Source: Bdellovibrio sp. SKB1291214 (lineage in GTDB: Bacteria; Bdellovibrionota; Bdellovibrionia; Bdellovibrionales; Bdellovibrionaceae). Taken from it: a DNA stretch of 64,000 nt. Shown here in pieces: positions 17,199 through 22,194 of this stretch (position 1 is the stretch's first letter; each line of letters begins with the position of its first letter). The stretch lies in contig NZ_CP106855.1 in NCBI RefSeq assembly GCF_002209355.2, positions 2,356,001-2,420,000 on the forward strand, read 5' to 3'. The position numbers and the translations under genes are program-made. The notes under the pieces were generated by a model that was not told the origin of the DNA, did not search any database, and saw only the letters and a program-made list of their open reading frames with translations.

Positions 17199-17227
17199 AA
17201 AAAAGGGCAGGTGATGAACCTGCCCTT
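17197..17227 (-). terminator. Intrinsic terminator of the PA14-like gene
   Basis: GGGCAGGT pairs with ACCTGCCC around a 5-nt loop. On the minus strand it is followed by an unbroken run of eight T, so it mainly ends the PA14-like gene. On plus the tail is weak but could help the MHS porter gene. Confidence 0.85.
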
Positions 17228-17259: not shown

Positions 17260-18549
17260 TTACGGCGTGATCATATAGTCTGGGGAGCTGATCACTTGAT
17301 TGCCCTTAGCGTCTACAGAGATCGCATTGATGATGTAGTAGATACCAGACACCAAGCCATCCAATTGAACTTCGTGGTTCGTTACCAGCTCAGAGTTCAC
17401 TTCTGTATAAATAACCTCACCCGTGAAGAAGTTCGAAATTCTCATTTGGCTTGTCGCTGGAACGTTGGTTTTCCAGATGATATTTGCTTTCGGAGCCACC
17501 ACTGAAGTTGCGATCACGTCAGTGATAACCAGTTTCTCCTCGACGCAAGGGTTGGTTTTTTGCTCTGGCATTTTGTAGTTCGCATTCGCGATCACAGTCC
17601 AACCCGTGGATTCCAGCCATTTAGTAACGGCCGTTGGTTTTTCTGTTTTTGGACTATAGAACAAGTCATTACCACTTCTGCCGCACACCCAGTTGTCTTT
17701 ATAGGACTTCTGGAAGGCTTTTTGGTCTTTGTGATACTTCCACATTAAAACATTCGAGATGTGGTAACGAGGACCTTGGTAGTAAAGAACTTTGATAGGT
17801 ACTTCAGTCTCTTTTTTCATTGTCAGAGTTCTGAAGGTGCAACCAAAACGGGAAGGATGATTGCCATCGTTATTAATCAATTCTTTCCATTGATCATTTT
17901 CTTTAAAGAACACACGGGCACCGTCGTCGGAGATGATACCCAATTCGTATTCACCTTCTTTATCGCCTTCAGCAAGTTTCAGGATAGAGTTGTATTCCAC
18001 CGCGAAGTTTTCAATTAACTTTTTGCCGCTGCCATCGATCAGAGTTGCACCACTTTCGTTAGTGAAACCCTTATCAAACATGCGAGTCGGCACGTTGATC
18101 GAGGCAAAGTAAAGGTCTTGGTCCATGCGGATACCCTTAGTATAGTAATCCATCACGCCAGTTACGGTTTTCATCTCTGGACTGCGCACATAGAGCTTAG
18201 CAGCTAATCCCAATGTGCGTGATTCTGAAGGAGTACTTGAAAGGGGGTCGCAGACAGTTTGATCTGGATCTGCTTCTGGAAACTCATAGACAGCGTTGGG
18301 ATCAACACCGTAATTGCTTCCATGATATGTGCAGCTGATTTTCTTAAGAAGACCAAGGGTCTTACGTAATTCTTCCAGCGATTGTTGATCGGAATTAGCG
18401 CTTGTTGAGTTCGATCCTGAACTTGCCGGTTGTCGGCTTTCCTGCTTGGAAGCGGTGCTAAAAATGGATTTTAAAATGTCGCCTAGTGATAGGGCGTGTG
18501 CCTGAGATGCAATCAAAGACACAGCAAGCAAAGCAGCTGTTTTTTTCAT
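17260..18549 (-). CDS. Secreted PA14-like / fibronectin III-like protein
   Basis: A 429-aa protein from ATG 18549, which has AGAGG upstream. A signal peptide (1-19, ending AHA) is followed by a Ser/Gln-rich linker and then a PA14-like domain of roughly residues 115-270 with the typical GEYELGIISDDGARVFF strand (DDG at 208-210). PA14 domains often bind carbohydrate. Residues ~330-429 look like a fibronectin III fold (TSVVAPKANIIWKTNVPATSQ, then DGLVSGIYYIINA). It follows the fibre gene on the same strand by 128 nt, so it may be an extracellular partner of that locus. Confidence 0.72.
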   Translation of the reverse strand: MKKTAALLAVSLIASQAHALSLGDILKSIFSTASKQESRQPASSGSNSTSANSDQQSLEELRKTLGLLKKISCTYHGSNYGVDPNAVYEFPEADPDQTVCDPLSSTPSESRTLGLAAKLYVRSPEMKTVTGVMDYYTKGIRMDQDLYFASINVPTRMFDKGFTNESGATLIDGSGKKLIENFAVEYNSILKLAEGDKEGEYELGIISDDGARVFFKENDQWKELINNDGNHPSRFGCTFRTLTMKKETEVPIKVLYYQGPRYHISNVLMWKYHKDQKAFQKSYKDNWVCGRSGNDLFYSPKTEKPTAVTKWLESTGWTVIANANYKMPEQKTNPCVEEKLVITDVIATSVVAPKANIIWKTNVPATSQMRISNFFTGEVIYTEVNSELVTNHEVQLDGLVSGIYYIINAISVDAKGNQVISSPDYMITP

Positions 18550-18676
18550 TTTTACGTACCTCTTACGTGAATAAATTAATGTTACCACGGTTAGGTGCAA
18601 TAAAAAGATTTACGAGTTGTTGTTATTATAATGGGACAAACAATTGGAGGTTTTGGAGTCGAAGGTCAATATTATT

Positions 18677-21631
18677 TTACAGTCCCAGCTGCTTCTTTAT
18701 CAAATTGAGATCATTATGTAAGTTCTCGTTTTGTTTTTTCAGCTCTTCGTTTTCTTTTTTTAATCTTTCCATCTCAGCGCGATTCAAACTATTTTGTAAC
18801 TCGATCGAAGCAATTCGACGGTCATGGTCGGAAAGCTTTTCTTCAGTCGCAGTGAGCTTATGGTAAAGCGATTTCACAGCTTCGATAAGTGGCGCGACCA
18901 AGTGATCGTAGGCAACAGCTTTAAATCCAGTTTTTTCATCAGTGATCACGACCTGTGGGAAAACTTTTTCAACGTCTTGAGCAATCACGCCCACTTGTTG
19001 TTGGTTGGTGAAGCGAGTCTTATCGATGTAGTTATACGTCACACCCTCAAGCTTTAAGATGCTGTTCAAAGAGTCTTGTAAAGGTTGAATATTTTCTTTC
19101 AGGCGACGGTCCGAAGTCGAAGTACATCCCGCAGACGAACAAATTTGTGTCCCAGCGATTCTATAAACATTTCCAGAGGTGATGTTTGTATCACCGGCGA
19201 TATCCAATCGATAATTCGGTATCGCAACTCCGATACCGACATTACCGGTCGAGTTCATAACAAAGTTAATCGCCTGAGAGGCTGAGTTGTCGCCTTTTGT
19301 TGTGAACATGATACGACCGCCGTACCCAGAGGCACCCCCTGAGCCGTCAGTCAGAACTTGAATACTTGCGAGTGTTTTTGCACCTGCATTGTTGGCAGCG
19401 TTGAACGTGACTTTACCACCGTAAGTACCTGTGGCTACGGTCGAAATATTATTATTCAGCTCCAAGATTCCAGTGTCCGTGATTGATGAGCCTTGACCGC
19501 TGACTGTCAAAACACCCGGACCAGATGCTGAAGCCAGATTCGTCGTGGTCCCGCCGATACCCACGGCCCCGGCGGAATCGATAATCATTCTGGTTTTAGC
19601 AGCAGTTTCATCATTAATAACAAAAGCACTCGCACCGTAACTAGAACTTAAACTTCCAGTATTCAAAGAATAGCTGCGTGCCGAGTTCGAGTTTACGATG
19701 TGGAAAGAAGTCCCTGAAGCCAGGGCAGAAGTTAATGCCAAAGGCACGTTCGAAACAGCTGTGGAGCCGATGCCGACATAACCAGACTGATTGATGTGCA
19801 TGCGTGTACTGCTATTCGTTTTAAAATACAGACTATAAGCATCTGACAAACCAACAGTCGCATCAGCACCAAAAGAATTTCCGGCACTTGTAAAGTAGTT
19901 TGGTGTGGCCCATGTCAGACCTGAACTTTGCCCCGAATCGGCGTAAAGCAATTGTCCTGTCGTACCCGCAGGCAAACGAATGTTGTTCGTACCATCTGAT
20001 GTTACTAAATCACCCTTCGCCGTAATCGGGGAGAGGTTGTTAAACGCCGTCGCCTTAGTTGTGGCACCCGTACCACCCTGTGAGATCGACACTGTTGAAG
20101 ACAAGCTTGAAGCAACCACATTGGTTAGTTGAGAACCATCCACCGCTGGCAGCTTTCCAAGAACATCCAGAGCGACAATTTTATTGGCGGTGGTTCCAGT
20201 ATCAACGACCAAGCTGTTGGAGGAAACCGTCAAGCCTGCCCCGTAACTTAAACCTAAACTTGATCCGGTCACGTTCAGGGGAGCCGTGGTTCCCAAAGTG
20301 GCGTAAGTTCCTGAACCGGTTCTCTGTACGATGCCTGTTCCAGTGACAGTGCTAAGATCCGTCGCCAGAGGCGTTGTCCACTTAAGACCCGTCGTCTGCG
20401 AGCTATCCGCTGTGAGGACCTGTCCAGTAGTTCCCGTTGCTAAAACAGAAGGGGCAGAACCCGAATAAGAAATCAAATCACCCTTTGCTGTCATCGGAGA
20501 CAGCGCCGTGAATGCAGCACTCGCTGTGGATGCTCCCGTTCCGCCCTTTGTAATAGGAACCAGGGAGGGGAAGTTTGATGGGTCTGCCGAAATAGTTCCT
20601 GATGTCACGGCGATACCAGAACCGATTTGCACGACACCTTGTGCGGTTGTGCTTGCTGTACCAATGGCAATGACGGGCGCCGCCGCTGTGCCGGTATTGG
20701 TGACTGGAGCAGTAACTCCCAAACTTCCAATCTTACCGTTGAACGCTGTAAAGTCAGCTGCAGACAGCAGACCTCTGTTTGTTGCAGACGCCGTCGGAAT
20801 ATTGAAAGTGTGAGTCGTGCCTGTTGAAGCAATATTGAAATCAGTACCAGCATTACCTGTCGCGAATGTTTGTGTGGTACCCGTAAGGCCGTTTAAGCTT
20901 GAAATGCCGCCGGAGCCCGTCGAATCATCGGCGACGGTCCATTTCGTTGTCGTCGCATTGTACTTAAGGATTTTACCATCTGCCAAACCCGTCGTATCAA
21001 CACTCACGCCTTTGATTTTATCAACTGAAGTTGTCGATTGAGTGCCGCTAACGTCACCAGATAACGATCCAGTAAAGTTCGTCGCGGTCGTGGCTGTTAG
21101 AGTTCCGCCAAGATAAGCCGCCATTAAGTTATTTAAATTTGTTTGTGTCGTATTGGTGCCACTGACTTGCAAGAATTCAGAGGCACCCTTATCCGCTAAT
21201 TTTTGCGAATTGATAGAGACGGGGATATTCCCAATTGTCACATCAGGGGTGAGGTCCACGCCGCCCACTGAAATGCGCAAAGCGCGTGTCGAAAAACCCG
21301 ACATAGTCACAGCCGTCGTCCCATCGCAGTTCACGCTGCCACCAGAAGCAAATATGCGATCTGCTGTGTTGTTGGTGGCATCAGTGCGAGTCCCGGTGCC
21401 CACGATCACTGAGAATTCTCCAGCAGAGCCCGGAGAGATCGATTGTGTTTCTGAATACATCACACAGGTCCCGTACAATACTTTGAACGTGACTGTTTGA
21501 GCTGTGGTGATCGGTGTCCCGCTTGAATCCGTCAGTACACCTTCATAGGTCAGTAGCGAGCCTGGCGATACGGCATGAGCTGCATTCATCAAAAGCATCA
21601 GGAGTGCGGAGGTGAAAAGGGCTAACTTCAT
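18677..21631 (-). CDS. Trimeric surface fibre with S74 chaperone (MAT-like)
   Basis: A 984-aa protein that resembles phage tail fibres and the mosaic adhesive trimer proteins described in B. bacteriovorus. A signal peptide (1-20) leads into a beta-sandwich-like N-terminus (LLTYEGVLTDSSG). Two ~62-residue shaft repeats at 360-421 and 517-577 share GGTGA, SPxTAKGDL and ATGTTGQxL-type blocks. Three GxVGIG turns (about 617, 688 and 797) mark a beta-helical part. The C-terminal S74 intramolecular chaperone starts near 838, with S840 and K845 (SDRRLK) as the autocleavage dyad, and ends in a coiled coil (~895-980). It begins in the stop codon of the upstream lipoprotein gene. Confidence 0.85.
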   Translation of the reverse strand: MKLALFTSALLMLLMNAAHAVSPGSLLTYEGVLTDSSGTPITTAQTVTFKVLYGTCVMYSETQSISPGSAGEFSVIVGTGTRTDATNNTADRIFASGGSVNCDGTTAVTMSGFSTRALRISVGGVDLTPDVTIGNIPVSINSQKLADKGASEFLQVSGTNTTQTNLNNLMAAYLGGTLTATTATNFTGSLSGDVSGTQSTTSVDKIKGVSVDTTGLADGKILKYNATTTKWTVADDSTGSGGISSLNGLTGTTQTFATGNAGTDFNIASTGTTHTFNIPTASATNRGLLSAADFTAFNGKIGSLGVTAPVTNTGTAAAPVIAIGTASTTAQGVVQIGSGIAVTSGTISADPSNFPSLVPITKGGTGASTASAAFTALSPMTAKGDLISYSGSAPSVLATGTTGQVLTADSSQTTGLKWTTPLATDLSTVTGTGIVQRTGSGTYATLGTTAPLNVTGSSLGLSYGAGLTVSSNSLVVDTGTTANKIVALDVLGKLPAVDGSQLTNVVASSLSSTVSISQGGTGATTKATAFNNLSPITAKGDLVTSDGTNNIRLPAGTTGQLLYADSGQSSGLTWATPNYFTSAGNSFGADATVGLSDAYSLYFKTNSSTRMHINQSGYVGIGSTAVSNVPLALTSALASGTSFHIVNSNSARSYSLNTGSLSSSYGASAFVINDETAAKTRMIIDSAGAVGIGGTTTNLASASGPGVLTVSGQGSSITDTGILELNNNISTVATGTYGGKVTFNAANNAGAKTLASIQVLTDGSGGASGYGGRIMFTTKGDNSASQAINFVMNSTGNVGIGVAIPNYRLDIAGDTNITSGNVYRIAGTQICSSAGCTSTSDRRLKENIQPLQDSLNSILKLEGVTYNYIDKTRFTNQQQVGVIAQDVEKVFPQVVITDEKTGFKAVAYDHLVAPLIEAVKSLYHKLTATEEKLSDHDRRIASIELQNSLNRAEMERLKKENEELKKQNENLHNDLNLIKKQLGL

Positions 21632-22194
21632 TCAGCAACCCTTCCTGAAACTTTAAAGCCTCCGCCGCTTGCAGTTTGCTGTTGATGGGCAAGAATGCGA
21701 CCTCGCAGAACAAGACCCGTCCCAGTTTGTACACCTGCTCCAGCAAGGATGCCTTGCTTGATTTGCGCCGGCGGCACGTAGCGAACCGTCACTTCGCGAT
21801 AGACATATATACCCGCGCGAGACCAAGCACGAAACTTCACGATGAAGGAATCACCGTTATTAATTGTCATTGAATTCAATGGAGCTTTAGAATTTGAAAG
21901 GGTGATTTCGTAGGTGCCGTCTTTAGAACAAATCACATAACCAGGATCATATGCATCGGACGAGGTCCAAGTGGTACCCCCATCAAATGATAGATCTACA
22001 GATGTTATAAATCGGGAACACTCGGCATGCAGAGGAATCGTCGTCAGCGTTGATGTCACGACATCCTTGCTAGGCTTGAATTCGAAGTTATCCATTGGAC
22101 GCAAAAATGAAACGGTCGGCTTCGCATCCGAACATCCCAAAACAAAAACTAAACAAAAGACAGTCAGTACTGACTGAACAAAAACTCTTTGCAT
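21628..22194 (-). CDS. Fibre-associated lipoprotein, 188 aa
   Basis: Signal peptide with lipobox VLGC and lipidated C21. The mature part is Ig-like (FDGGTTWTSSDAYDPG, then WSRAGIYVYREVTVRYVPP), with two or three Cys that could bridge, and ends in a Gly/Gln-rich tail (AHQQQTASGGGFK). It overlaps the fibre start by 4 nt (ATGA), so the two are translationally coupled. Coupling and lipid anchoring suggest an envelope anchor, chaperone or secretion partner for the fibre. No named family was recognised. Confidence 0.75.
   Translation of the reverse strand: MQRVFVQSVLTVFCLVFVLGCSDAKPTVSFLRPMDNFEFKPSKDVVTSTLTTIPLHAECSRFITSVDLSFDGGTTWTSSDAYDPGYVICSKDGTYEITLSNSKAPLNSMTINNGDSFIVKFRAWSRAGIYVYREVTVRYVPPAQIKQGILAGAGVQTGTGLVLRGRILAHQQQTASGGGFKVSGRVAE

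Follow-up and report, generated by a model that had tools for sequence, protein, structure and literature searches.

A lipoprotein gene overlapping a mosaic adhesive trimer fibre gene in Bdellovibrio, and the association of such coupling with the fibre head

A three-gene fibre locus

The minus strand of a 64,000-nucleotide stretch of the Bdellovibrio sp. SKB1291214 genome (the stretch being termed 'the window' here, in a host genome of 3.68 Mb) carries three genes arranged head to tail, which encode, in order, a lipoprotein (LPP), an S74 fibre and a PA14-containing protein. A previous sequence-only reading of the same DNA had placed these genes in this order (calling the last product PA14/FN3-like), and had noted that the fibre gene begins within the stop codon of the 188-residue lipoprotein; both statements are borne out by the open reading frames, as listed below in window coordinates.

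21628-22194, minus strand: LPP, a 188-aa lipoprotein with a lipobox, an Ig-like middle (putative) and a two-repeat C-terminal tail
21631-21753, minus strand: LPP tail, about residues 148-188, two short beta-type repeats (QTGTGLVLRGRI / QQTASGGGFKVSGRV)
21640-21646, minus strand: Shine-Dalgarno sequence AGGAAGG for the fibre gene, within the last LPP codons, 8 nt upstream of the fibre start
21628-21631, minus strand: ATGA, a four-base overlap of the fibre start codon and the LPP stop codon
18677-21631, minus strand: 984-aa mosaic adhesive trimer (MAT) fibre, positional orthologue of Bd3182
21137-21574, minus strand: MAT head domain, about residues 20-165, in which YEGVLTD replaces the common YQGRI
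18947-19114, minus strand: S74 intramolecular chaperone/protease domain, S840-D-R-R-L-K845
17260-18549, minus strand: 429-aa secreted PA14+FN3 protein, with a signal peptide and without a lipobox
17203-17227, minus strand: terminator-like intrinsic hairpin beyond the PA14 gene (10-bp stem and T run)

The fibre begins with a signal peptide, followed by a MAT head of approximately 130 residues that matches both NCBIfam NF053851 (Bdello_MAT_N; 100.7 bits against a cutoff of 60, residues 11-157) and a head profile built for this study (E 5e-39). Near its C-terminus, residues 840-895 match Pfam Peptidase_S74 (PF13884; 69 bits, cutoff 22) and include the SDxxxK motif as SDRRLK. The signal peptide and the S840/K845 self-cleavage site named in the sequence-only reading are thus confirmed, and its description of a predator's prey-recognition fibre holds in the sense that the protein is a MAT adhesive fibre; MATs are known prey-recognition adhesins of Bdellovibrio. 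A Pfam search placed Adeno_shaft below its cutoff in this protein, and matched no autotransporter anchor domain.

The equivalent locus of B. bacteriovorus HD100 has the same LPP-fibre-PA14 arrangement. Its fibre (922 aa, with SDARLK at S782) matches PDB entry 8OJN, which is Bd3182 (PMC10769870), over residues 632-782, and the window fibre is therefore the positional orthologue of Bd3182. That protein is the representative S74 MAT, and resembles the window fibre in its signal peptide, head, long shaft, C-terminal S74 SDxxxK motif and gene neighbours (PMC10769870; NF053851); self-cleavage, trimer formation and surface display have been shown for it or for other MATs (PMC10769870). The two genomes differ in their repertoires: the window fibre is the only S74 gene product of its genome, which has three MAT heads, as compared to 13 S74 genes and 21 MATs in HD100. 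A C-terminal S74 chaperone domain with a Ser/Lys cleavage motif is also found in S74 phage tail fibres and endosialidases, from which the window fibre differs in being bacterial and secreted, in carrying a MAT head, and in a coupling to a lipoprotein that is independent of S74.

LPP displays the lipobox LGC21-SD (a predicted lipidation site at Cys21, with Ser at position +2) and matches no Pfam or NCBIfam family above cutoff; a sub-threshold match to Pfam Big_7 suggests that its middle region is Ig-like. The PA14 domain of the third protein scores 29.1 bits (Pfam cutoff 24), and its start is more likely the ATG at 18549 than the TTG at 18600. An AlphaFold model of this protein, poor elsewhere, is better defined over an FN3-like C-terminal domain (pLDDT about 70-86), for which the best Foldseek match is an FN3 domain (E 8e-5).

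Conservation of the locus in the genus

LPP is encoded in 21 of 24 Bdellovibrio species genomes (that of the window included), and in every one of those 21 it adjoins a fibre gene, so that the objection raised in advance against a dedicated partner, namely that its homologues might never be found beside fibre genes, falls away. The LPP/fibre junction reads ATGA or GTGA in all 21 loci, and the order lipoprotein, fibre, PA14 recurs in every locus of the genus with enough contig, which argues that the layout is not due to chance. The genes that flank the triad vary (a MATE gene, a 365-aa gene, a 252-aa gene) while the triad itself is kept. Conservation of both order and overlap across 21 species strongly supports the earlier suggestion of a dedicated lipoprotein partner.

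The three remaining species (G004, G013 and G015) have neither LPP nor an orthologue of the PA14 protein; the one match to LPP in G013 is weak and lies within a 908-aa protein. Because all three branch inside the genus in a LysS tree, some branches of which are weakly supported, separate losses are indicated. Among 16 triads, median identity to the window is highest for the fibre head (63%), followed by the LPP tail (56%), the PA14 protein (53%), the LPP middle (48%), the S74 region (47%) and the shaft (32%). In one species (G017, L055:7342-8994, minus strand) the triad fibre has only 550 residues and a non-S74 tip, with both its LPP and PA14 neighbours kept.

Several related loci were also observed. 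The triad fibre reading frame of G016 (L057:5987-8843, minus strand) is split into 818 and 148 residues, with S74 in the second part, representing either a frameshift or a sequencing error. Lipoproteins of 908-912 residues in G013, G009 and G001 (L076:5003-7729, L077:5364-8099 and L078:5647-8385) possess an LPP-like N-terminus (hmmsearch E 3e-9 to 3e-8, Z=1000) and adjoin the MATE gene, at the site of the window's triad. In another genus (G029; L074:1807-8642, minus strand), a 203-aa relative of LPP overlaps a 2075-aa S74 MAT by 4 bases, and is followed by a third gene that differs from that of the window.

Beyond the genus, homologues of the PA14 protein are encoded by stand-alone genes that do not adjoin fibres, most of them with lipoprotein N-termini. 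The window's PA14+FN3 protein is related to this order-wide, mostly lipoprotein family but is not itself lipidated, and its link to the fibre appears specific to Bdellovibrio, given that homologues elsewhere stand apart from fibres.

Coupling follows the class of fibre head

The sequence-only reading had tied the lipoprotein to S74 fibres. A partner gene does lie beside the fibre, but the coupling goes by the class of the fibre's N-terminal head rather than by its S74 tip; as a mark of S74 fibres it was rejected, in that the fibre of G017 and other non-S74 MATs are coupled as well. The 188-aa family is found at Bd3182-type loci; the lipoproteins of other MATs are smaller, with a tail that resembles its own.

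Two sets of loci bear on this point without bias, the MATs of HD100 and a survey of MAT loci gathered largely through S74, without regard to lipoproteins. The full HD100 set offers the clearest test: the head profile finds 21 loci there, equal to the published MAT count of 21 (PMC10769870). None of the 14 MATs with a YQGR head has an adjacent upstream lipoprotein gene, as compared to six of the seven with a variant head, where it lies directly upstream (Fisher p 1.3e-4); the exception is variant-head MAT 2781728, with no adjacent lipoprotein. Two lipoprotein matches near YQGR genes of HD100, at distances of 128 and 203 bases, were rejected as spurious by sequence. The variant-head set includes the fibres that match PDB entries 8OL4 (Bd2439), 8OKW (Bd2734) and 8OKS (Bd2740), and the lipoprotein partner of Bd2740, encoded 53 bases from the fibre, has an LPP-like start (CSDVTPQVSFL).

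In the S74-based survey, all 68 heads without an upstream lipoprotein read YQGR, and the two variant heads found beyond the triads (L070 and L181) each have a lipoprotein upstream; four surveyed loci had no MAT head (one at a contig edge, three with unusual N-termini). Overall, variant heads reading YEG, FQGV, ISGR, YHGR and VSGK have a lipoprotein gene directly upstream, often overlapping. Two further loci of the G007 genome were noted. At L154, next to prfA, the fibre reading frame is fused behind a PrmC-like N-terminal domain, reflecting either the insertion of part of a fibre gene into prmC or an error of assembly; at L157:1267-3003 (minus strand), an S74 protein has a type IV prepilin-like N-terminus (GFSLVEILLALGI) and is possibly a pilin-borne fibre tip.

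A tree of heads divides the fibres by coupling, requiring 5 changes of label as compared to 45 when labels are shuffled, and the divergence of heads is correlated with that of lipoprotein tails (rho 0.55, 0/1000 permutations; without the triads, rho 0.41, 0/1000; for the 21 triads alone, not clearly so, rho 0.21, 55/1000), although both kinds of count are biased where they include loci L227-L312, which the lipoprotein had itself served to find. Taken alone, the correlation is weak evidence, in that linked genes may diverge together without contact.

Most other MAT partners form one family of small lipoproteins (about 86-160 aa) with two C-terminal repeats, and members that were tested match no Pfam or NCBIfam family. 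Many of their genes directly precede variant-head MATs. Of 119 genomes of the order, 61 match the family profile, and each of these has MAT heads; none of the 22 genomes with no MAT matches (Fisher p 1e-8, uncorrected for kinship). One type ('A') adjoins YQGR MATs in many Bdellovibrio but stands by itself in G013, in G015 and in the genome of the window, and for this reason a shared role is proposed for it; G018, which has many YQGR fibres and no A-type lipoprotein, contradicts the idea of a shared anchor. The A-type gene of the window's genome (L227:11139-11408, plus strand) has no MAT within about 7.5-11 kb.

The last 41-42 residues of LPP give a gapless alignment of 37 columns with the tails of one class ('C') of small lipoproteins, with an hhalign score of 20.9 that was reached by 0/300 column shuffles (mean 7.9, sd 1.8, maximum 13.9), class C being one among a few tail comparisons made. 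The corresponding comparison to A and B tails is not significant (17/200 shuffles reach the score), and alignment of whole LPP to a first set of small lipoproteins recovered the signal peptide alone. The membership of LPP in this family is thus supported via one class only. A possible relationship to the hit-locus protein Bd0109 was considered and set aside.

A possible role for the lipoprotein partners

The reading that we favour, and consider reasonably probable, is that LPP, fibre and PA14 genes form a single MAT-fibre operon in which LPP holds or seats the fibre via its head, LPP itself representing one member of a broader set of lipoprotein partners. Gene pairing, matching by class and similarity of tails are what the data show, and head-tail contact, outer-membrane location and anchoring are inferred from them. 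The fibre would be exported by means of its signal peptide and would then trimerise, and its S74 domain would be expected to cut itself off. LPP would be lipidated at Cys21, probably reaching the outer membrane, and would bind the N-terminal head of the fibre, most likely by its two-repeat tail, with the Ig-like part acting as a spacer; the PA14+FN3 protein would serve as a conserved secreted accessory. An anchor or head-assembly partner is the best reading of a protein that is lipid-anchored, encoded just before the fibre, and matched to its head rather than its tip. An S74 fibre of about 540 residues in G015 (L178:1570-3192, plus strand), which has no MAT head, is itself a lipoprotein (SSCSDINPEVS), and so supports a lipid anchor in principle, in cis. 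A broader proposal, in which the Bdellovibrionales possess a set of lipoprotein anchors matched by head class, is more tentative, and we would not yet lean towards it: each variant-head MAT would have its own lipoprotein encoded directly upstream, whereas YQGR fibres may have in common a single small lipoprotein whose gene lies elsewhere.

That lipoproteins can assist trimeric adhesins is already known in principle, and the SadA/SadB system (PMC3953254) gives weight to a different role, in which the lipoprotein is not an anchor at all but a periplasm-facing assembly chaperone that helps the head to fold, trimerise or cross the outer membrane. SadB is a lipoprotein that helps to display the trimeric adhesin SadA, the gene overlap at the window's locus puts lipoprotein synthesis first, and matching by head class fits a chaperone equally well. 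The two systems differ in that SadA is a trimeric autotransporter adhesin, whereas the head of MAT fibres is N-terminal and the window fibre shows no match to an autotransporter anchor; SadB, for its part, resides in the inner membrane and adopts a MATH-like fold, for which LPP shows no similar match in Pfam or NCBIfam (the AlphaFold model of LPP, from four sequences, is poor, with a pLDDT of 43, and too weak for a comparison of folds). Against a chaperone, the Asp at position +2 that signals inner-membrane retention is found in 0 of 51 paired lipoproteins (an E. coli rule, which may not apply here), and the lipobox of the G015 fibre suggests that a lipid anchor can suffice. We regard the chaperone as an unlikely alternative to the anchor, though one to be taken seriously. 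Co-inheritance without cooperation, in which the three products are separate surface factors co-expressed from one cassette, would suit the mosaic nature of MAT fibres and the fact that linked genes diverge in step regardless of contact, but is improbable given that coupling tracks head class over paralogues and genera rather than locus, that LPP and the PA14 protein are jointly absent from three species, and that the small-lipoprotein profile is confined to genomes with MATs.

The main text of PMC10769870, which defined the MATs, contains neither the word 'lipoprotein' nor a head-class rule, nor an explanation of how these fibres are held and displayed at the surface; within the literature searched, the partner proteins appear to be new, as do the rule by head class and the extent of its spread. 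A known fibre family gains an apparent and previously unremarked partner system. The prediction by head class names lipoprotein genes beside fibres that have already been tagged or crystallised (Bd3182, Bd2439, Bd2734 and Bd2740), which makes the question of fibre display directly testable. If the set of anchors matched to head class is real, it would constitute a bipartite system for displaying trimeric fibres, unrelated to autotransporters.
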